A stretch of DNA of 61,293 nucleotides from a candidate division WOR-1 bacterium RIFOXYB2_FULL_37_13 (lineage in GTDB: Bacteria > Margulisbacteria > WOR-1 > XYC2-FULL-46-14 > XYC2-FULL-37-10). The position numbers were made by a program, and so were the translations under genes. Where the stretch lies: NCBI GenBank assembly GCA_001771535.1, contig MEUB01000009.1:1-61293 (forward strand), written 5' to 3'. The notes under the pieces were generated by a model, which had not been told where the DNA came from, did not search any database, and saw only the letters and a program-made list of their open reading frames with translations. Of the stretch, positions 12,665 through 43,257 are shown in pieces (positions within the stretch are counted from its first letter, which is position 1; each line of letters begins with the position of its first letter).

Positions 12665-13426
12665 ATGGGAGTTATTACAGCTTTTGTAAACCAAAAAGGC
12701 GGAGTTGGTAAAACTACCACAACGGTAAATCTGGCCGCTTATTTAGCTTCTTTAGATAAAAAAGTTTTGGTTCTTGATATGGATCCTCAGGGAAATGCTA
12801 CTGTTGGATGCGGAGTTGACCGCCAAAACCTTGAAACCTGTATCTATAATGTTATGGTTGATCAAGTTCCTATTATTGATGTTATACAAAAAACAGCAAT
12901 TAATAATCTTGACATAATTCCCGCAACGGCCAGGCTGGCAGGAGCAGAGGTTGAATTGGTTTCTGCTCCGGAAAGAGAATTCAGACTAAAGAAAGCTTTG
13001 TTTGACGCGAAACAGGTTTATGATTATTTAATGATAGATTGTCCCCCTTCATTAAACCTTTTAACGGTTAACGCTTTAACAGCCGCAGATGAAGTGGTGA
13101 TTCCAATACAATGCGAATATTATGCTCTTGAGGGTATAAGCCAGCTAATAAAGACTCTTGATCTTGTTCGAGAGAGGTTAAACCCTATGTTGAAAATTGG
13201 CGGAGTTTTACTGACAATGCATGATCAAAGAACTGTTCTTGCAAATCAGGTCGTTGAGGAAGCGCGGAAACATTTTGGCTCAAAGGTGTTTCAAACAATT
13301 ATTCCAAGAAATGTCCGTCTGGCTGAAGCTCCGAGTTTTGGCCAGCCTATAATATTTTATGACCCGGGTTCAAAAGGAGCATTAGCTTATGAGCAACTGA
13401 GTAGGGAGGTAGTTGGAAATGAATAA
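12665..13426 (+). CDS. parA: Chromosome partitioning ATPase ParA/Soj
   Basis: A 253-residue chromosomal ParA. The deviant Walker A is KGGVGKTTTTVN near the start, the Walker A' region is VLDMDPQGNAT, and Walker B is YLMIDCPPSLNLL. It lacks the N-terminal helix-turn-helix extension of plasmid ParA type Ia. ParA forms ATP-dependent dimers on the nucleoid and moves ParB-parS complexes. A TATAAT at 12650-12655 ends nine bases before the ATG, with no Shine-Dalgarno site. The stop overlaps parB by eight bases. Confidence 0.95.
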   Translation: MGVITAFVNQKGGVGKTTTTVNLAAYLASLDKKVLVLDMDPQGNATVGCGVDRQNLETCIYNVMVDQVPIIDVIQKTAINNLDIIPATARLAGAEVELVSAPEREFRLKKALFDAKQVYDYLMIDCPPSLNLLTVNALTAADEVVIPIQCEYYALEGISQLIKTLDLVRERLNPMLKIGGVLLTMHDQRTVLANQVVEEARKHFGSKVFQTIIPRNVRLAEAPSFGQPIIFYDPGSKGALAYEQLSREVVGNE

Positions 13427-14345
13427 AAAAGGATTGGGAAGGGGGTTGTCTGCGCTTATTCCTGAAGGGTCTGTTTTTACGGGAGGACGTACAATTGTCA
13501 ATATAGCAGTTGATAAGATTGTTCCTAATCCTCGCCAGCCGCGCACTGTTTTTAATGAAGAAAATTTAAGAGAATTATCAGAAAGCATTAAAATTTCCGG
13601 AATTGCCCAACCGGTTCTTGTTCGCATGAGAAAGGGAACTTACGAACTTGTTGCGGGCGAACGCCGTCTGCGCGCCGCGAAATTAGCTGGATTAAACGTT
13701 GTTCCTGCTATCATAAAGGACTTTAGTGATGAAGAGTCCGTTCAACTTGCCTTAATTGAGAATTTACAGCGTGAAGATTTAAACCCTTTAGATGAAGCGC
13801 TTGCTTATTCCAGACTGGCATCTGAATTTAACATGAGCCAGGCTGAAATCGCAAAAAGGGTAAGCAAAAATCGTTCTACGGTTGCAAACATGCTCAGGTT
13901 AATTGAATTGCCTTTGGAAATCCAGGAATCATTAAAAAGCGGCGAAATTTCTACAGGACATGCCAGAGCTCTCCTTTCAATAGAAAGCAATGACAGAAAA
14001 CTAACAGTTTTTGCTGATATTATAAAAAACAAACTTAGCGTTCGTGATGTCGAATTAATTATTTATGGTGAGCCGAAGCTTTCAAAAAAGAAAAAAAGTT
14101 CCAAACGAGCTGAAAGGATTGATGAAGAATTAAAACCTTGGGCCGAAAAGCTTGTTTCCTTACTGGCAACAAAGGTCAAAATGCGAGGAACTAAAAATCG
14201 CGGAAGAATTGAAATAGAATATTTTTCTAAGGAAGATTTAGAACGACTACTCGATATTATCTTGGGAGATAAGAAGCAGTCTGATGAAGTTTTTAATGCT
14301 GTTAATAATGAAGGAGGGATGGATGTTGACAGGCAAATTAATTAA
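13419..14345 (+). CDS. parB: Chromosome partitioning protein ParB
   Basis: A 308-residue ParB family CTPase/DNA-binding protein. The N terminus MNKKGLGRGLSALIP is typical. The CTP-binding motif region is PRQPRTVFNEENL with VAGERRLRAAKLAG, and the helix-turn-helix is 'MSQAEIAKRVSKNRSTVANMLRL'. The C-terminal dimerisation part ends in IEIEYFSKEDLERLLDII. The ATG at 13419, behind a GGAGG at about 13405, is preferred over a TTG two codons upstream. No parS-like palindrome was noticed in the window. Confidence 0.95.
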   Translation: MNKKGLGRGLSALIPEGSVFTGGRTIVNIAVDKIVPNPRQPRTVFNEENLRELSESIKISGIAQPVLVRMRKGTYELVAGERRLRAAKLAGLNVVPAIIKDFSDEESVQLALIENLQREDLNPLDEALAYSRLASEFNMSQAEIAKRVSKNRSTVANMLRLIELPLEIQESLKSGEISTGHARALLSIESNDRKLTVFADIIKNKLSVRDVELIIYGEPKLSKKKKSSKRAERIDEELKPWAEKLVSLLATKVKMRGTKNRGRIEIEYFSKEDLERLLDIILGDKKQSDEVFNAVNNEGGMDVDRQIN

Positions 14346-24051: not shown

Positions 24052-25749
24052 TTATTTATTTTCCTTGATTTTTCTTAAAATTTCATCTGCTTCTGCTTTT
24101 GTTACAGGTTTGTCGGGATAAAAATAACTACTCTGTCCAACCATTATTTTTTTATCCGCTACGGCTTTTATGTAAGGAGCAAAGGGATGATCTGCCGGCA
24201 CATCAGTGAAAACAGCTTTTGTGACCTGAGACAGAGGGATATCCAGGGATTTTGTAACCCAGCTTGCGAATTCTCCCCTTAACATTGGCGCATTGAGCGC
24301 GATTTCTTTGTCCGGTTCTGCGTCAATTACTCCTATCGTTATCAATGCTTCAAGTTTTTCTTTTCTTATAGTAATTATTTGTATATCCTTTTTGATTTTT
24401 TGAATATCATCTTTTGTTGTCGCGTTTTTTAATTCTTCTTCCGCCTTTTTCTCTTCGACAATTTCAACCTTGCTTTTTCTTAAAACTTTGATATTGGCAG
24501 TATCGCTAAAATCATCCAAAGAGGCTTTAATTGCTATCAGATTTTTTCCTATTTGTAATGGAAAAACAACTTCAAATCTGTTGTTTTTATCTAAGATAAC
24601 AAGTTGATCGTTTACAAAAACCTTTGTCCCATTTTTTGCTTCTCCACTTACAATTAGGCTGTCTTTATAAGTTGTGATTTCTCTTGGGATATCTATTTTC
24701 AGCATTGGTGCTGTTTTTTCTTCTCTTTTCTTTTCTTCTTTACCGGTTTTTGTAAAAGTCCAGATGTTTGGATCATATGATATCGAAAAAATATAGGATC
24801 TAGAGTCTTTTAGTAAATCATATGATGAAGCAAAATCTATTCCCCATTCTCCGGGATTAAATCCCAGGCCAAAACTGCTTGTGTTGCCGGAAGCTTCTTT
24901 TACGATAAAACCTCCGCGAAGAGAGAGATAATCTTGAAAAATCCATTCCAATCCAAAATGGCCAATTCCTTGTGATATCATGGAAGATTCTGCATCAAAG
25001 TTTATAAAAATCCTATTATTTTCTGAATAGACAGGAGCATTTTCCTTGTCGACCGGTTTGAGGCTTATACCGCTTCTTAAAATTGCCGGAACCCCTTCAA
25101 GTCCTCCTGTGTTCCAGTCAATGACCCCTCCATCATTAACGTTTTTGCCTTTTGGCATGGTATTTTGAATTACAGCGCCAAAAGAAAACCATGATGATGG
25201 GTTATAAAGGAATCCAAAGTCGAGTTCCCATCCTCGTGTTATTTTATTTGCCGATCCTGTCAAATCAAAGCTTCCAGTTGCCAACTGAGAAAGAATCGAT
25301 TTGAAATTTAAGCCTAATCCTATTGATTGGGAATTTGGAACCTTACTAATTATCGGAATGGAACTCAATTTTGTCCCAACAGAAAAAAGAATTATGCTGC
25401 TTGAGAAATCACCCGCCCCCGATTCATTTATGACAAGGTCTGAGATTTTTGAACGGACATATCCTATCCCCAGCGTAATGCCCGATCCTGTTGGAAAAGC
25501 TTGAGCGGCAGATAAATTGTTGAAATCTTTTCCGGATAAAATTATCCCTTTTGACCAGGGGAGTCCGCCGGGGTTGTAAAATAAAGTATTGGGGTCTCCT
25601 ATCATTGCGGAAAAAGCCGCTCCCATGCCTAATGGATGAGCGCCTAATTCGGTGTTAAATACCTGATCACCCAACTCGGGAAAAGTCAAAGAAAAAGAAA
25701 TAACCTGTAAGAGTATAAATAAAGTTAAACTTAATAGGGTTTTTTTCAT
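24052..25749 (-). CDS. PorV/UPF0164-like outer-membrane barrel with Ig domain and one SLH domain
   Basis: A 565-residue protein. Signal peptide at 1-22. Residues about 25-340 look like an FadL/PorV-type barrel: ELGAHPLGMGAAFSAMIGD and LFYNPGGLPW are the N-terminal signature of that group. A short Ig-like domain follows (VSGEAKNGTKVFVNDQLV), then a charged helical linker, then one SLH domain near the C terminus (RGEFASWVTKSLDI, FTDVPADHPFAPYIKAVADK). The family barrel is known to sit in the outer membrane; SLH domains bind secondary cell-wall polymers or peptidoglycan. The protein probably ties outer membrane to wall. The ATG overlaps the upstream stop by four bases. Confidence 0.75.
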   Translation of the reverse strand: MKKTLLSLTLFILLQVISFSLTFPELGDQVFNTELGAHPLGMGAAFSAMIGDPNTLFYNPGGLPWSKGIILSGKDFNNLSAAQAFPTGSGITLGIGYVRSKISDLVINESGAGDFSSSIILFSVGTKLSSIPIISKVPNSQSIGLGLNFKSILSQLATGSFDLTGSANKITRGWELDFGFLYNPSSWFSFGAVIQNTMPKGKNVNDGGVIDWNTGGLEGVPAILRSGISLKPVDKENAPVYSENNRIFINFDAESSMISQGIGHFGLEWIFQDYLSLRGGFIVKEASGNTSSFGLGFNPGEWGIDFASSYDLLKDSRSYIFSISYDPNIWTFTKTGKEEKKREEKTAPMLKIDIPREITTYKDSLIVSGEAKNGTKVFVNDQLVILDKNNRFEVVFPLQIGKNLIAIKASLDDFSDTANIKVLRKSKVEIVEEKKAEEELKNATTKDDIQKIKKDIQIITIRKEKLEALITIGVIDAEPDKEIALNAPMLRGEFASWVTKSLDIPLSQVTKAVFTDVPADHPFAPYIKAVADKKIMVGQSSYFYPDKPVTKAEADEILRKIKENK

Positions 25750-26978
25750 TCTACAACTAAAACCTTTATATTTTTATAATCTTTCCAGCCTAGATTATCA
25801 CCCGCGATTATATTTATGTTTTTTTCTCCAGTTGCTTCTGCCGAGGCCAAAAACTTGATTGTATAATTTCCGTCTCCTTTGAGAGTGTCCCCATTTGTCC
25901 CGTCATCATACATTTGCACGTCAGCAAAATTGTTCAAGGATGAAAGATCTGATTTTACGTAAAGGATTTTCTCCAACCCATCCCTATTCCTGGTCATAGC
26001 ATTAATTGTTATGGCGGAGGGGGTGTTAATTGTTATCGATTCGGGGGATGCTTTGGCACTGAGAATTTCGGGAGGAATATTGATTTTCGCAAAATCATCG
26101 TCCGTATACTCTGTCTGGAAATCATATAATTCTTTTTTTAGGGAGGCAACTCTTTTTAGCCGAGACAAAAGAATAGCTGTTTCTGCCCTGGTTATATCCC
26201 TGTCGGGTTCAAAGAGAGGAGAGTTTAAAGATATTCCTTTTATAAGCCCCAGAGCTTTTGCAATTTTAAGTTGTTTAAAAAGCGGGTGGATCAAAGGGAC
26301 ATCTTCAAAAAAATCGATAGAGACGACTTCATTAATAGAAGGTTCTTCCGCCTTTAAACAAGTTACAGCTGCTTCTGCTCGGCTGATATTTATATCTATT
26401 CCAAAACTGCCGGTTGTGTCCGCTTCCATATAGCCTTTGTCCGCAACTGCCTTTATATATCGGGATCTCCAATGTTCTTTTGGAACATCTTTAAAAGGGT
26501 CTTCTTTTGGATTGTCTGTCATAAGACCCTGCGCTTTGCATAGCCATGTCGCAAATTCTCCTCTTGTGGCACTGTCATTCATGTAATAATTTCCGTCCGG
26601 AAATCCTTCCAGTATTCCAAGAGTCGCAAGAGCTTCTATCTCTTTTTTTGCCCAATGAAACCTTCCATTGTATAAGTTGCTTAAATCTGGAAATGAAATT
26701 AAACGTAAAACTCTGAATTGGCCGATATCTTGAATATTAATAAGGTTCTTTCCGGGATGCAGGATAAACGCGCAATGTAAAAGATTGTTTTTCAGGTTAA
26801 GCAGGACATTGTTTACCCTGATTTTTGTTGTATTTCCGGCTTTTTCTTTTATTTCTAAAATATCCTGGTATGTTATAAGAGTGTCTTTAATATTTGAAAG
26901 TTCAAATAAAATCGCGTGTGAAACGGCAGCCAGAAAAAAAATGAAAGAAATTAATAGCAAAAGAGTTTTCTTTTTCAT
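25746..26978 (-). CDS. Secreted triple-SLH protein with C-terminal Ig-like domain
   Basis: A 410-residue protein with a signal peptide (1-22) and three SLH domains at about residues 98-155, 160-212 and 222-275. Their hallmarks are FHWAKKEIEALATLGILEGFPDG, TRGEFATWL, FKDVPKEHWRSRYIKAVADKGYM and ITRAETAILLSRL. The last ~100 residues resemble the Ig-like domain of the 23213-24049 gene (DVQMYDDGTNGDTLKGDGNYTIKF). It is the first gene of the operon that ends with the sensor kinase. Probably a cell-wall-bound periplasmic or surface protein. Confidence 0.75.
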   Translation of the reverse strand: MKKKTLLLLISFIFFLAAVSHAILFELSNIKDTLITYQDILEIKEKAGNTTKIRVNNVLLNLKNNLLHCAFILHPGKNLINIQDIGQFRVLRLISFPDLSNLYNGRFHWAKKEIEALATLGILEGFPDGNYYMNDSATRGEFATWLCKAQGLMTDNPKEDPFKDVPKEHWRSRYIKAVADKGYMEADTTGSFGIDINISRAEAAVTCLKAEEPSINEVVSIDFFEDVPLIHPLFKQLKIAKALGLIKGISLNSPLFEPDRDITRAETAILLSRLKRVASLKKELYDFQTEYTDDDFAKINIPPEILSAKASPESITINTPSAITINAMTRNRDGLEKILYVKSDLSSLNNFADVQMYDDGTNGDTLKGDGNYTIKFLASAEATGEKNINIIAGDNLGWKDYKNIKVLVVE

Positions 26979-27045: not shown

Positions 27046-29376
27046 ATGCATCTGAAATTTCTGGAAATTAAAGGTTTCAAAACTTTTGCCGACGGCGAAA
27101 AGATTATTTTTGATTCTTCATCCGGAATTACTGCTATTGTAGGTCCAAATGGATGCGGGAAAAGCAATGTTGTTGATGCTTTTCGTTTTGTTCTTGGAGA
27201 AGCAAATATCCGCAGTCTCCGTGTAAACACGGCACAGGAAGTTATTTTTGCTGGAACCGAGACCAGAAAATCGCTGTCAATGGCTGAGGTTGCTTTAACA
27301 TTTGACAATTCCGATAAGGCCTTACCTCTTGATTACAATGAAGTTTGCGTAAAGAGAAGAACTTTTCGCGATGGAGAAAGTAAATTTTTAATTAATGGAC
27401 AATCTTGCAGGTTAAAAGATATACGGGATCTTTTTCTAGATTCCGGATTGAGCACGGAATCCCTTTCAATTATAAGCCAGGGACGTGTTGATGCCATTCT
27501 TTCTTCAAAACCTGAGGAACGCCGTTCGGTTTTTGAAGAAGTCGCAGGCATTAATAAATACAGGTTTCGAAAATCAGAAGCTGAAAGAAAGCTTATTTTA
27601 TCTGAACAAAACTTGCTTAGAATAGCTGATATTAAAATTGAAATTGGTGAACAGCTTATTTCTCTTGAGCATCAGGCAAAATCTGCCAAAGAATATAAGG
27701 AAATACAAGAGAATGTCCGCCAAATGGAATTAACTGCTTTCAAAAAACAGGCAAAACTTCTTTTGACCCGCAGAGAAATTATTGCGGAAGAAGTTGCGGT
27801 GTTACGTAAGCTTGCCGAGGAAAGAGAAGAAGAACGCTTAAAACTAAAGGAAGAGAGAGAAGGAAAGCAGAAGATTTTACAACAGCTTGAAATTGAGCTG
27901 AATCAGATTTTTTTAAATCTGGAAAAGATTAAAGATTTAATAGAAGAAGAACGGGGGAATCTCATTATTGAAAAAGAGAGGCATCTTTTTGAAGAAAAAA
28001 ACAAAGTCCGCGACCTTAAAGAAGAAGAACGATTTTTATCTTATGCGATCAAGAATGTGACGGATGGGCTAAAAACCCTTTATGCAAAAAAACAAGAGAT
28101 TGGGGATAAGAGGCGTGAAGCCTCATCTGTAAATTTAGATGAGTTTGGAGATTTTCAGGAAGCTGTCAGGCTTACGGTTGAAATATCTCAAAAACTCAAA
28201 ACAATACTTGTTGATTACTTTGGAAAATCCTGGGAAGAGTTAAAAGAAGATGTTTCAGTAGAAAAATTCCGCAAACTTTTGGATGTTGAATCCCAGGGGA
28301 TAGAAAAAGAAATAGCGGTTCAAAGCGAAGAGTTGAAAGCCAAGAATACGCAACTTAATAATTTGGCAGTTGATATATCTGCTGCGGAAAATAAATTAAC
28401 GGAATTGGTTAAACAGACCGAAGATTTTGAAAAAACTCCGCTGAGCGAAGAAACTTCAAAGCTCCAAGCTGAAAAAAATTCTTTAGAAAAGCAAAAAAAT
28501 GAACTAAAAATAAGGAAAGATGAAATTGTTAATGTTCTTCATGAGTTAAATAACGCGGCATTTGATGAAGTCAGTGGAGATGGGCAATCGTCTGATCTTT
28601 TAAGAAAAGAGGTTTCTCTGGCAAAAATAGAGACAGAATTGGCTCAAATTGAAAAATTTGTAGAAGAGGAATATTCTCTTTTGTTCGCGGATCTTCTGTC
28701 TTTTGATGAAGAAGCTTTGGGTGCCAATAAAAACAAAAAAGAGATAGAAGAACTTAAAAAAAAGTTGAGGGCATTGGAACCTGTTAATCTTCTTGCTATA
28801 GATGAGTTTGAAAAATGCAAAGAACGGCATATTTTTATTGAAACACAGCATCAGGATATTTTATTAGCTCGAGAAAACCTAAAGACACTTATTACCGAGT
28901 TGGATATTAAAGCGCGTGAAGACTTCCAAAAAGCAATTGGGGTTATAGCAGGCAATTTTTCTTCTGTTTTTTCCGAGCTGTTTGAAGGTGGAGAGGCCAA
29001 AATAATGATGGAAGAAGGGAAAGATGCTTTAGCTGCGGGCATTGAAATTTCCGTGCGTCCAAATGGTCGTAAATGGCTGAATATCTCTTTACTTTCCGGA
29101 GGGGAAAGGTCTTTGACTGCCATTGCCCTTCTTTTTGCCATATTAAAAACTTCGCCCAGCCCTCTTTGTATTTTAGATGAAGTTGATGCTGCGCTTGATG
29201 ATTCAAATATTGCCAGATTTACTTCATACCTAAAAAATTTTTCTCAGGCTTCTCAAATGCTGGTTATTACTCATAGCAAACGGACAATGGCTGTAGCAGA
29301 TTCAATTTATGGCATAACAATGGAAGAGCCTGGCATTTCAAAGGTTATTTCTATGAAACTCGAAAAGGTGGGATAG
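27046..29376 (+). CDS. smc: SMC chromosome segregation protein, short form without recognisable hinge
   Basis: A 776-residue SMC; bacterial SMCs are usually about 1,150-1,200. The N-terminal head is complete: Walker A GPNGCGKSN at 33-41, the Q-loop SIISQGRVDAI at 141-151, and FEEVAGINKYRFRK. The C-terminal head has LEPVNLLAIDEFE (577-589), signature LSGGERSLTA (683-692) and Walker B PLCILDEVDAAL (706-717). Coiled-coil runs at about 175-360 and 415-600. Between them lies only a ~60-residue segment (361-420) with no glycine-rich hinge and no CxxC hook. ScpA and ScpB are encoded at 40.6-41.9 kb. The reading frame is uninterrupted, so this is not a frameshift product. Confidence 0.9.
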   Translation: MHLKFLEIKGFKTFADGEKIIFDSSSGITAIVGPNGCGKSNVVDAFRFVLGEANIRSLRVNTAQEVIFAGTETRKSLSMAEVALTFDNSDKALPLDYNEVCVKRRTFRDGESKFLINGQSCRLKDIRDLFLDSGLSTESLSIISQGRVDAILSSKPEERRSVFEEVAGINKYRFRKSEAERKLILSEQNLLRIADIKIEIGEQLISLEHQAKSAKEYKEIQENVRQMELTAFKKQAKLLLTRREIIAEEVAVLRKLAEEREEERLKLKEEREGKQKILQQLEIELNQIFLNLEKIKDLIEEERGNLIIEKERHLFEEKNKVRDLKEEERFLSYAIKNVTDGLKTLYAKKQEIGDKRREASSVNLDEFGDFQEAVRLTVEISQKLKTILVDYFGKSWEELKEDVSVEKFRKLLDVESQGIEKEIAVQSEELKAKNTQLNNLAVDISAAENKLTELVKQTEDFEKTPLSEETSKLQAEKNSLEKQKNELKIRKDEIVNVLHELNNAAFDEVSGDGQSSDLLRKEVSLAKIETELAQIEKFVEEEYSLLFADLLSFDEEALGANKNKKEIEELKKKLRALEPVNLLAIDEFEKCKERHIFIETQHQDILLARENLKTLITELDIKAREDFQKAIGVIAGNFSSVFSELFEGGEAKIMMEEGKDALAAGIEISVRPNGRKWLNISLLSGGERSLTAIALLFAILKTSPSPLCILDEVDAALDDSNIARFTSYLKNFSQASQMLVITHSKRTMAVADSIYGITMEEPGISKVISMKLEKVG

Positions 29377-38331: not shown

Positions 38332-38568
38332 GTGGAACAAACAAAAGAGGTTCAAAAAGAAATAGTGTTTTATGCCAAAAAACTTTCTCCATTCAAGCAA
38401 ATAGAAGCACTTGATTTTATCAAGTGGTTATATGGGGGACCAAGTAAAGAAGATAATTACACATCCGAAGAAATAAAAAAAATTAAAACATTGGTATCTA
38501 AAAAAGGCGGAGAGAAATTTAAAAATTGGGAAGATGCAAAAGAATACTTGAAGAGTTTAGCCAATTGA
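38332..38568 (+). CDS. Antitoxin-like partner of the RelE-type toxin
   Basis: A 78-residue acidic-basic helical protein starting at GTG, behind AAAGGAG at 38319-38325; a TGATATAAT box ends at 38289. No known DNA-binding fold is recognised. The FIKWLYGGPSKED segment and the C-terminal NWEDAKEYLKSLAN would suit an antitoxin that wraps the toxin. Its TGA overlaps the toxin start (TTGA), which implies coupled translation. Called an antitoxin from position and size only. Confidence 0.6.
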   Translation: MEQTKEVQKEIVFYAKKLSPFKQIEALDFIKWLYGGPSKEDNYTSEEIKKIKTLVSKKGGEKFKNWEDAKEYLKSLAN

Positions 38569-38840
38569 TTTACTTTTTCAAACCATCGTTTAAACGCTTA
38601 TTCAAAAAGCTTCAAGCATTGAAACGAGATCAGGTTCTTGAAGCAATTGAAGCACTAAAAATAGTCCTTGAATCAAAAAAATCCATTGAAGGGCTTGGTT
38701 TAAAGCTTTTGAGTAATAATATTTGGGAAATAAGATCATCTCTTAAGGATAGAATTATTTTTACTTTTGACGATGAAATAATTACATTTGTTCTAGTCGG
38801 CAACCACGATGAAGTCAAAAGATATTTAAAAAACTTATAA
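38565..38840 (+). CDS. RelE/ParE-superfamily toxin
   Basis: A 91-residue protein starting at TTG (38565), overlapping the antitoxin stop by four bases. The pattern 'F.PSFKRLFKKL', then GLGLKLLSNNIWEIRSSLKDRIIFTF and FVLVGNHDEVKRYL is the RelE/HigB-type fold with the conserved 'lWElR....RI.f' core. Family members cut mRNA in the ribosome or, for ParE, inhibit gyrase. It is 40-50% like the toxin at 42985-43257 by eye, although the partner genes are unrelated. Confidence 0.75.
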   Translation: MIYFFKPSFKRLFKKLQALKRDQVLEAIEALKIVLESKKSIEGLGLKLLSNNIWEIRSSLKDRIIFTFDDEIITFVLVGNHDEVKRYLKNL

Positions 38841-39669: not shown

Positions 39670-40652
39670 CAAGAAAACGCGTTTTATCAGGCATTCAACC
39701 AAGCGGGAAGCTCCATCTTGGGAATTTAGTTGGAGCTCTTCAAAATTGGGTTTCACTTCAAGACAAATATGATTGTTTCTTTTTTATTGCCGATTATCAT
39801 GCTTTAACTACAGGTTATGACAATGTAAAAGCCCTTCCCGGATATATAAAAGATGTTGCGATCGATCTTTTGGCTGTTGGTCTTGATCCAAAAAAGTGTG
39901 TCCTTTTTAAACAATCAGATGTTACAGCACATTGCGAGCTCCATCTCCTCTTTTCAATGATAACGCCTCTTTCTTGGCTGGAAAGAGTTCCAACTTATAA
40001 AAGCAAAATAGCCGAGTTAAAAGGGAAAGATTTGGGGACTTACGGGTTTTTGGGGTATCCAGTCCTTCAGGCTGTTGATATTTTACTTTATAAACCGGCA
40101 TTTGTTCCTGTTGGCGAAGACCAACTCCCTCATCTTGAACTGACGCGTGAAATTTCTAGGCGGTTTAACCATTTTTATGGGGATATATTCCCTGAACCTA
40201 AGGCTCTTTTGACCCATGTTCCTACAATGCCGGGTCTCGACGGTAGAAAAATGAGCAAAAGTTATGGCAATACTATCGCATTGTCTGACACTTCCGATGA
40301 TATAAAGAAAAAAGTTAATTCAATGATTACCGATCCTGCACGAGTAAAAAAAGAAGATATTGGCCACCCCGATGTCTGCACAGTGTTTTCATACCATAAA
40401 ATTTTCAACCAGGCAGGAGTTCCGGCAATTGAACAAGAGTGCAAAGAAGCCTCTCGCGGTTGTGTGGCATGCAAAAAAGAATTCTTATCGCATCTGCTTG
40501 AAATTTTGGAACCTATTCAAAAAAGGCGCCGCGAGATAGAAACAGATGAAAACAAACTTCACGATATTCTGGCGGACGGAGCTAAGAAGGCGAAGAGCAT
40601 CGCATCAACAACTTTAAAAGAGGCCAAAGAGGCTATGGGGCTTATATCTTGA
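39666..40652 (+). CDS. trpS: Tryptophanyl-tRNA synthetase
   Basis: A 328-residue class I synthetase. The HIGH-like motif is SGKLHLGN in GIQPSGKLHLGNLVGAL, and the KMSKS motif is GRKMSKSYGN. The tryptophan-binding region contains FIADYHALTT and GYPVLQAVDILLY. Length and motifs are normal for the short bacterial TrpRS. The gene starts within the stop of a 58-residue protein and ends within the start of scpA (TTGA overlap), giving a tightly packed operon trpS-scpA-scpB, an order also known in Firmicutes and relatives. Confidence 0.96.
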   Translation: MTRKRVLSGIQPSGKLHLGNLVGALQNWVSLQDKYDCFFFIADYHALTTGYDNVKALPGYIKDVAIDLLAVGLDPKKCVLFKQSDVTAHCELHLLFSMITPLSWLERVPTYKSKIAELKGKDLGTYGFLGYPVLQAVDILLYKPAFVPVGEDQLPHLELTREISRRFNHFYGDIFPEPKALLTHVPTMPGLDGRKMSKSYGNTIALSDTSDDIKKKVNSMITDPARVKKEDIGHPDVCTVFSYHKIFNQAGVPAIEQECKEASRGCVACKKEFLSHLLEILEPIQKRRREIETDENKLHDILADGAKKAKSIASTTLKEAKEAMGLIS

Positions 40653-41377
40653 CTGTAGAGACGTTTAAAATAGAGACTGAAAAATATACAGGACCGTTTG
40701 ATCTTTTGCTTGCCGCTATAAAAGATGAAAAACTTGAGATATTTGACGTATCGCTTGCCAAAATAACATCGTCATACTTTGAATATTTAAAAAAATCGGA
40801 GGTTCTTGACCTTTCTTTGGCATCTGAGTTTCTTTTGATGGCTGCCGTTCTTTTAGAATTAAAATCAAAAGAAGTACTTCCAAAACCGCAGGAGAAACTG
40901 TTACAGGAAGAAGAAAACGAAATTGAACAGGATTTGGCAAAACACCTTGAAGAATATAGGATGTTTAAGCAAATTGCAGAAGAATTGCGGACAAGAGGGG
41001 CGACATTTAAGAAAATATTTTCACGTTATCACAGGGATGACGGGAGAAGAAAGACCGAGAAGGTGGAGTATGAATTTAAGAATGTAGGGCTTGATAAACT
41101 TGTAGAGGCATTTAAGCGTGTTTGGGATTCTATCCCGCAACAAAGGGCTCTTCAGCACATAGAAGACGAAGATGTTACTCTTCCTCAAAGAATTGAAGAG
41201 ATAACAGATATGATAAAACGATCCGGTTGTGGAATAGAGTTTGAACAGCTTTTTATCCGTAGGACAAGGCTTGAGGTTGTTGTGACTTTTTTAGCTATTC
41301 TTGAATTGGCCAAAAGGCGGGAAATTAAAATAGTACAAGGAGGGAATTTTGGTGGAATTACAATTAAATGTGCTTAA
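40649..41377 (+). CDS. scpA: Segregation and condensation protein A
   Basis: A 242-residue kleisin that bridges the SMC heads. It starts at TTG (40649), overlapping the trpS stop. The N terminus KYTGPFDLLLAAIKDEKLEIFDVSLAKITSSYFEYL is the classic ScpA helical domain that contacts the SMC neck. The C-terminal winged helix (FEQLFIRRTRLEVVVTFLAILELAKRREIKI) contacts the other head. Length is normal, so the ring partner has not been shortened in parallel with SMC. Confidence 0.93.
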   Translation: MTVETFKIETEKYTGPFDLLLAAIKDEKLEIFDVSLAKITSSYFEYLKKSEVLDLSLASEFLLMAAVLLELKSKEVLPKPQEKLLQEEENEIEQDLAKHLEEYRMFKQIAEELRTRGATFKKIFSRYHRDDGRRKTEKVEYEFKNVGLDKLVEAFKRVWDSIPQQRALQHIEDEDVTLPQRIEEITDMIKRSGCGIEFEQLFIRRTRLEVVVTFLAILELAKRREIKIVQGGNFGGITIKCA

Positions 41378-41903
41378 GAAAAACCTGGAAGCCTTGCTTT
41401 TTGCCACTAGAAAACCTTTGTCAATTGACGAATTAACGAATCTTTTAGAGGCAGGCAAAGAGGATGTTGAAAAAGGAATTTACGAACTAACAGCAGAGTA
41501 TGCAGAGAGAGGGATTAAGATACTTGAAATTTCGGGTGGGTTTATTATGGGGACAGATTCTTCCTGTTCTGAGTATGTTGACCGTATGTTTAACATCAAA
41601 ATTGAAACGACATTGTCTCCTCAATCTATGGAGACGCTTTCAATTGTCGCTTACAAACAGCCTGTTACAAAAGCGGAAATTGAAAGGATCAGAGGCCTTT
41701 ATTCCGACGGAACAATTGCGACTCTTCTTGACAGAGGGCTAATTGAGGAGAAGGGGCGGGCTGACTCTTTGGGGAGGCCTATTTTGTATGGGACGACGGA
41801 AGATTTTTTAAAGCATTTTGGACTAAAAGATGTTTCTTCCCTTCCAGAAATCAACGAAAGCGAACTTTCGCGAGGCAAAGTTTTTGAAGTAGCGTTGAAG
41901 TAG
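41352..41903 (+). CDS. scpB: Segregation and condensation protein B
   Basis: A 183-residue ScpB with two winged-helix domains: LEALLFATRKPLSIDELTNLL and LSPQSMETLSIVAYKQPVTKAEIERIRG, the second being the most conserved family block, followed by LLDRGLIEEKGRADSLGRP. It dimerises and binds ScpA. GTG at 41352 is chosen because it sits seven bases after AAGGAGGG; a TTG at 41349 is also possible. It overlaps scpA by 26 bases. Confidence 0.93.
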   Translation: MELQLNVLKKNLEALLFATRKPLSIDELTNLLEAGKEDVEKGIYELTAEYAERGIKILEISGGFIMGTDSSCSEYVDRMFNIKIETTLSPQSMETLSIVAYKQPVTKAEIERIRGLYSDGTIATLLDRGLIEEKGRADSLGRPILYGTTEDFLKHFGLKDVSSLPEINESELSRGKVFEVALK

Positions 41904-42730: not shown

Positions 42731-42988
42731 ATGACTGTTAAAATCTTAGAAAAAAACAATTTAAAAATGATTACTATCCCGGAGAATATATTAAAACATG
42801 TAGGACTAAGTTCCGGAGGATTAGTTGAAGTGACAGATGATGGTTATCATATAATTCTTACCCCAATTGATGAAGAATTCACTGAAAGTGAGTGGAAAAA
42901 ACTTGGAATGTTGAAGAAAGAAAAAGGAAAGGTTTTTCAAAACAAAAAATCTTTCATTAAAGGGCTAAAAGGATTAATGAAAAAGTGA
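42731..42988 (+). CDS. AbrB/MazE-fold antitoxin
   Basis: An 85-residue protein, ATG behind GGAGGA. The N-terminal half is a SpoVT/AbrB-type swapped-hairpin DNA-binding domain: KILEKNNLKMITIPENILKHVGLSSGGLVEVTDDGYHIILTP, whose 'iPe.i....gl..Gd.v.v...' rhythm is diagnostic. The C-terminal basic tail (KGKVFQNKKSFIKGLKGLMKK) probably covers the toxin. The TGA overlaps the toxin GTG by four bases. Such antitoxins usually repress their own promoter, here repeat copy B. Confidence 0.75.
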   Translation: MTVKILEKNNLKMITIPENILKHVGLSSGGLVEVTDDGYHIILTPIDEEFTESEWKKLGMLKKEKGKVFQNKKSFIKGLKGLMKK

Positions 42989-43257
42989 GATATGAAAGAA
43001 AAAGGTCTTTTGATCGAATTTTCAAAAAACTTAATTACGGTGAACAAGTAACTATTGTTGAAGCCATAGATAAATTACTTTCTTTTTATGAATCAGGAAT
43101 CAAGTCTGAAGGTCTTGGGTTAAAACATTTAAAGGATGATTTATGGGAAATAAGAACTTCTATAAGAAATCGGATTTTGTTTTCAATTTATGGTGATTTA
43201 ATATCTTTTTTATTGCTTGGCAATCATGAAATTAAAAAGTTTTTAAGAAGTTATTAA
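42985..43257 (+). CDS. RelE/ParE-superfamily toxin
   Basis: A 90-residue protein starting at GTG (42985) inside the antitoxin stop. The core GLGLKHLKDDLWEIRTSIRNRILFSIYGDLISFLLLGNHEIKKFL lines up with the toxin at 38565-38840 (GLGLKLLSNNIWEIRSS...). Same fold, same length, but here paired with an AbrB-type antitoxin. Probably a ribosome-dependent mRNA nuclease; catalytic residues of RelE vary and are not assigned. Confidence 0.75.
   Translation: MRYERKRSFDRIFKKLNYGEQVTIVEAIDKLLSFYESGIKSEGLGLKHLKDDLWEIRTSIRNRILFSIYGDLISFLLLGNHEIKKFLRSY

Follow-up and report, generated by a model that had tools for sequence, protein, structure and literature searches.

SMC complexes are taken to dimerise universally through the hinge, which in loop-extrusion models is also a candidate gate for DNA. 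In B. subtilis, an engineered Smc carrying the zinc hook of Rad50 in place of the hinge is functional, and its authors conclude that it does not matter which fold the dimerisation domain has; in the same work, the main modes of natural arm length are 238 and 341 residues, and the shortest functional engineered arm of B. subtilis Smc measures 253 residues (PMC5344682). An abundant cluster of "hinge-less" SMC sequences was described in 2025 from an ocean gene catalogue and assigned to Actinomycetes; an unknown lineage or function was proposed for it, and ScpA is not mentioned (PMC12153180). Because of that cluster, the idea of an SMC without a hinge is not wholly new.

The window analysed here is the whole stretch of 61,293 nucleotides from the candidate division WOR-1 bacterium RIFOXYB2_FULL_37_13, a member of the class WOR-1 in the phylum Margulisbacteria. 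All genes with a stated strand lie on its forward strand. The smc gene (27046..29376) is a single open frame of 776 codons, whose product scores 687.2 bits against TIGR02168 (SMC_prok_B, the NCBI equivalog for bacterial SMC; cut-off 567.35) and matches PF02463 at 9.7e-71. The N-terminal half of the ATPase head corresponds to residues 1-169 (27046..27552) and the C-terminal half, with the adjoining neck, to residues 577-776 (28774..29373); both are covered by PF02463 and by PDB structures of B. subtilis Smc heads (3zgx and 5h66 for the former, 5h66_B for the latter). As the sequence-only reading had stated, both half-heads are complete and in one frame, with Walker A at residues 33-41, the signature at 683-689 and Walker B at 706-714. 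The Walker A motif GPNGCGKSN (27142..27168), the ABC signature LSGGERS (29092..29112; S684, G685, G686 and E687) and the Walker B segment ending in the catalytic D711 and E712 (29161..29181; P706, D711 and E712), as well as the Q-loop and H-loop residues, do not vary among 19 members of the class. In the AlphaFold2 model a split ABC head is formed within the single chain, and the closest PDB structures are the Smc heads of B. subtilis and Geobacillus. As expected, this fold search returned the heads alone, and it is uninformative on the tip. By sequence descent the protein is an SMC, although it fails the textbook criterion of a hinge.

The absence of the hinge had been proposed from the letters alone, with a search of the middle of the protein against the Pfam hinge profile (PF06470) as the check. 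No match was obtained there or elsewhere in the 776 residues, even at E<=10, nor when all frames of the genome (1.79 Mb) were examined, in a search that was positive in 10 out of 14 control genomes; the profile was likewise unmatched in all 31 genomes of the class. A second hinge HMM, built in this analysis from 63 hinges, gave matches in 63 of the 69 SMCs used for comparison and left all 28 SMCs of the class unmatched. Neither model is perfectly sensitive: Pfam gave no match in the Caulobacter and Bacteroides controls, and our own HMM misses four proteins of 1100-1140 residues with real or likely hinges (L110, L059, L079 and L074). For this reason only clearly short proteins were counted as hinge-less in other lineages, on which the imperfect sensitivity of the Pfam model bears more than on the class. 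A divergent hinge overlooked by Pfam in the class SMC is ruled out by the length of the protein, by the independent HMM and by the all-helical model, in which no strands are predicted between the heads. Inspection of residues 300-450 found no cysteine, so that a CxxC zinc hook of the Rad50 type is also lacking, as had been noted. Profile searches of the whole genome revealed neither a second SMC nor a hinge-only protein; the one other SMC_N match above cut-off is a frame of 520 residues, the size of RecN. A second full-length SMC, which would have refuted the first reading, is accordingly absent. The same reading had placed about 60 residues without a hinge between the coiled coils: the lack of a hinge stands, while the segment is closer to 44 residues (359-402) and contains a predicted helix, rather than being an empty gap. 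Its description of the hinge as present in every standard SMC needs qualifying, since hinge-less SMCs exist in further lineages too (PMC12153180).

The AlphaFold2 model comprises the heads, an N-terminal arm made of one long helix (residues 170-358, 27553..28119), a loop, a short helix at residues 367-392 (28144..28221), a second loop, and the helical C-terminal arm, which starts at 403 and extends to 576 (28252..28773). The arms had been judged about half the usual length, and the measurements bear this out: from landmark to landmark (Y172 to E578) there are 405 residues, where the sister family that retains the hinge has 815, and the arms measure 192 (N) and 187 (C) residues compared with about 355 each in that family. 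The criterion of long arms for a bacterial SMC (about 340 residues) is therefore not met. In the class alignment the two arms are equal within 5-19 residues, and their lengths covary (r = 0.92, 25 proteins, shared ancestry not corrected); the hairpin accordingly turns at the helix 367-392, where the hinge would be expected. This tip helix differs in composition from the arms, with 40% of V, I, L, M, F and W (25-27% in the arms) and 21% of charged residues (38-42% in the arms). Among 331 windows of 24 columns along the arms it has the top hydrophobicity and one of the highest helical moments. Within a heptad, as many as three of its columns are hydrophobic (370, 373/374, 380/381, 384, 387/388 and 391/392). 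In coiled coils such a density is suited to bundles with more than two helices, and a multi-helix bundle fits better here than a two-stranded coil. The helix ends in an F/L-G-K motif (residues 392-394, 28219..28227); of 25 class members, 20 have G393 and 16 have K394. Conservation at the tip is otherwise low (mean BLOSUM score 0.2-0.7, versus 3-4 in the heads); residues being individually ill conserved, it is the pattern that is kept, not the sequence. Model confidence at the tip is moderate (pLDDT 45-70), and the AlphaFold2 alignment, from which homologues of the class were left out, contained only one other sequence there.

The partners of a condensin are encoded in the same window. The kleisin ScpA (40649..41377) matches PF02616 at 1.7e-31 over profile positions 2-230 of 232, and the kite subunit ScpB (41349..41903) matches PF04079 at 6.5e-52 over positions 2-160 of 160; both are thus of normal length, as had been read at 40.6-41.9 kb. 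The criterion that kleisin and kite be encoded together with the SMC is met, in the absence of binding data. The two genes overlap by 29 bases (41349-41377) in different frames. A stretch comprising trpS, scpA and scpB is flanked on both sides by similar small ORFs (38526-38840 and 42985-43257), ending in ...VGNHDEVKRYLKNL and ...LGNHEIKKFLRSY, which look like toxin genes of the RelE/HigB type. Upstream of smc, at 24052-26978, two divergent genes carry repeats resembling S-layer homology domains, by reading and without a profile. ParB, the putative SMC loader (13413..14345), matches PF17762 at 1.1e-34, and directly upstream of its gene lies that of a ParA-like ATPase (12665..13426), recognised without a profile from the deviant Walker A motif KGGVGKTT in the ORF. 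Two perfect 16-bp parS sites, 2 kb apart, adjoin mnmE, jag, yidC and dnaA (identified by reading their ORFs), whereas a reversed-pattern control gave zero sites. A location of parS beside these genes is the usual one, near the origin. ScpA was found in 27 of the 31 class genomes, the four without it being among the less complete ones (79-89%; 84% for G030). With ScpA, ScpB and ParB in the window and parS beside dnaA, the protein looks like a normal condensin; being also the sole SMC of the genome, it would be the condensin of the cell, as the first reading had supposed and as far as genomes can tell.

Heads and coiled coil without a hinge also recall Rad50/SbcC and RecN, and a repair ATPase of that kind, or some other function outside condensin, could be imagined. 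Such a role is very improbable: the protein reaches 57.8 bits for Rad50 (cut-off 700) and 47.1 bits for RecN (cut-off 407.85), compared with 687 for SMC_prok_B; it has no CxxC and its best PDB matches are Smc heads; ScpA, ScpB, ParB and parS are all retained, and a separate gene of RecN size is present. As an identity for the 776-residue protein, Rad50 or RecN is rejected on the curated scores, which lie far under their cut-offs.

The short SMC is a property of the class, present in 30 of its 31 genomes, so that the orthologues of like length proposed as a check were found. Lengths range between 716 and 780 residues in most families and between about 845 and 905 in three early-branching ones. 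Since the genome is a draft of 71 contigs, a deletion, frameshift, chimera or misassembly might be suspected; the chance of this is negligible, given that the gene is one open frame and that the same architecture is shared by 28 independently assembled genomes, from nearly as many genera, including the single-contig G011. No genome of the class has a hinge, and an isolated deletion or assembly fault is ruled out by these relatives, a point on which the initial interpretation could have failed.

Within the phylum (74 genomes), the hinge is confined to the sister family f10, outside the class, whose SMC is 1193 residues long and carries its hinge at about 528-633. The remaining families have almost no SMC match above the level of RecN and almost no ScpA; a partial SMC frame of 193 residues occurs in one of their genomes (G044). 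Most of families f11-f30 show neither SMC nor ScpA, and one genome among them (G051) has ScpA and no SMC match. In a maximum-likelihood tree of the heads the class and f10 form one clade (support 100/98), within which the class itself is supported at 100/99, and the neighbours outside this clade bear hinges. Since f10 and the neighbours next to it in the tree bear hinges, and the class is a supported clade, the simplest reading of the tree is a single loss of the hinge, in the common ancestor of the class members.

Short SMCs were also encountered elsewhere. Among the matches listed in the scan of named genomes was an 811-residue SMC from Pelagibacteraceae AG-918-B08 (L047:6001-8433), and in the order Pelagibacterales (SAR11) a short SMC is present in 136 of 147 genomes, in frames mostly of 799-891 residues; in most other Alphaproteobacteria the protein measures about 1150-1200 residues. 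Neither the Pfam profile nor our own HMM detects a hinge in the SAR11 SMC, and AlphaFold2 models it as a bare hairpin of antiparallel helices, in which six residues (397-402) make the turn, with pLDDT 83-93 around them. SAR11 is far from the class in the head tree, and on that evidence its loss of the hinge is independent. An alphaproteobacterial SMC of 820 residues (L148/G245), 39% identical to the SAR11 protein over its full length, represents either a further short lineage or a deep relative of SAR11. A single SMC of 997 residues from Kiritimatiellaceae SAT197 (L071:6001-8991), whose sequence contains unresolved bases, gives no hinge match with either model, and its most hydrophobic stretch lies precisely at the midpoint; it groups with a hinge-bearing SMC of Pontiellaceae at 100/99, and a hinge is present in its close relative L051 (1191 residues). 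This protein is probably hinge-less as well, with less certainty, the case being a single one. Across the genomes seen here there were thus two or more losses of the hinge, probably three.

How a ring might be closed without a hinge is a matter of inference. The reading that we favour, with confidence somewhat above even, is that of a condensin working with ScpA-ScpB and loaded through ParB-parS, in which one ancestral loss removed the hinge and the tip helices dimerise as a bundle. About half of each arm would have disappeared together with the hinge, and each Smc would fold back on itself as a hairpin, its two strands of about 190 residues running antiparallel. Loaded at ParB-parS and acting with ScpA-ScpB, two such molecules could pack their tip helices into a helical bundle, probably of four helices, which would take over the dimerising job of the hinge; this is the weakest step. 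The ring would be closed by this bundle, the heads and the kleisin, and would be smaller because of the short arms; upon ATP binding the two heads would engage, bridged by ScpA, and head engagement would presumably still drive the movement of DNA. Non-hinge dimerisation is plausible, given that B. subtilis Smc works with a zinc hook (PMC5344682). Tip helices, heads and kleisin had been named from the start as possible sites of dimerisation; the list seems right, and the sequence favours the tip helix, with neither experiment nor dimer model behind the tip-to-tip bundle.

The amphipathic helix could, on the other hand, merely cap the hairpin of a single molecule. The protein would then be a condensin whose tips do not dimerise, the pair being held by ATP-engaged heads and by ScpA and ScpB, both full length. 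This is possible and less likely than the bundle; the weak conservation of the tip sequence agrees with it, as does the confidently modelled bare hairpin of SAR11, which suggests that tip dimerisation may be dispensable in some hinge-less SMCs. Against it are the strong amphipathicity and unusually low charge of the helix, and the fact that the functional replacement of the hinge in B. subtilis was another dimerisation domain (PMC5344682). A broader proposal, that bacterial condensins have lost the hinge on two or three occasions at least and that in some of them (the SAR11 model, possibly the class) the tips remain undimerised, the hinge or the closed two-arm ring being dispensable for a working Smc-ScpAB motor, is put forward only tentatively. 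A hinge supplied in trans by a tip-binding protein would account for an exposed greasy tip and has no direct support; with PF06470 absent from all frames of this genome and from the 31 genomes of the class it is improbable, a non-homologous adaptor not being excluded. With a short greasy helix where the hinge would be, ring closure in the class is a testable question.

Together with one of the commonest bacterial groups of the ocean, the class offers natural minimal motors for probing the purpose of the hinge and of long arms, and its short Smc proteins (about 720-780 residues) are a ready set for structural and single-molecule work. No paper on the hinge-less SMC of SAR11 or of the class, and no account of this lineage, its genome context or the recurrence of hinge loss, was found in the literature searched, which did not include subscription literature and preprints.

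Compared with known systems, the class SMC resembles the canonical Smc-ScpAB of B. subtilis and T. maritima (TIGR02168) in its heads, neck/joint sequence, ScpA and ScpB, ParB-parS and expected chromosomal role, and differs in the missing hinge, the arms of about half length and the helical tip. Rad50/SbcC likewise combines ABC heads and coiled coil without an SMC hinge, but needs the CxxC zinc hook absent here, and scores low. The engineered B. subtilis Smc proteins with a zinc hook or short arms also have the hinge fold replaced and short arms; they are artificial, retain a known dimerisation domain and function with arms of at least 253 residues, whereas the class arms, at about 190, fall below that minimum and both natural modes, the landmarks used not being identical (PMC5344682). 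The SAR11 Smc and its relatives (about 799-891 residues) share the absence of a hinge, by HMM and AlphaFold2, and differ in their independent origin and in a tip that is a bare hairpin, lacking the additional helix. The oceanic cluster likewise has SMC heads, a coiled-coil hairpin, and neither hinge nor zinc hook; it consists of gene-catalogue sequences, from a lineage other than the class as far as can be told, the sequences not having been compared (PMC12153180). For the class, in contrast, whole genomes are available, with a sole SMC, ScpAB, ParB-parS, polarity from the sister family and a tip helix. What is added to the earlier description, as far as can be told, is the lineage, the genome context, the polarity of the loss, the partners, the loader sites and a candidate for what takes the place of the hinge.
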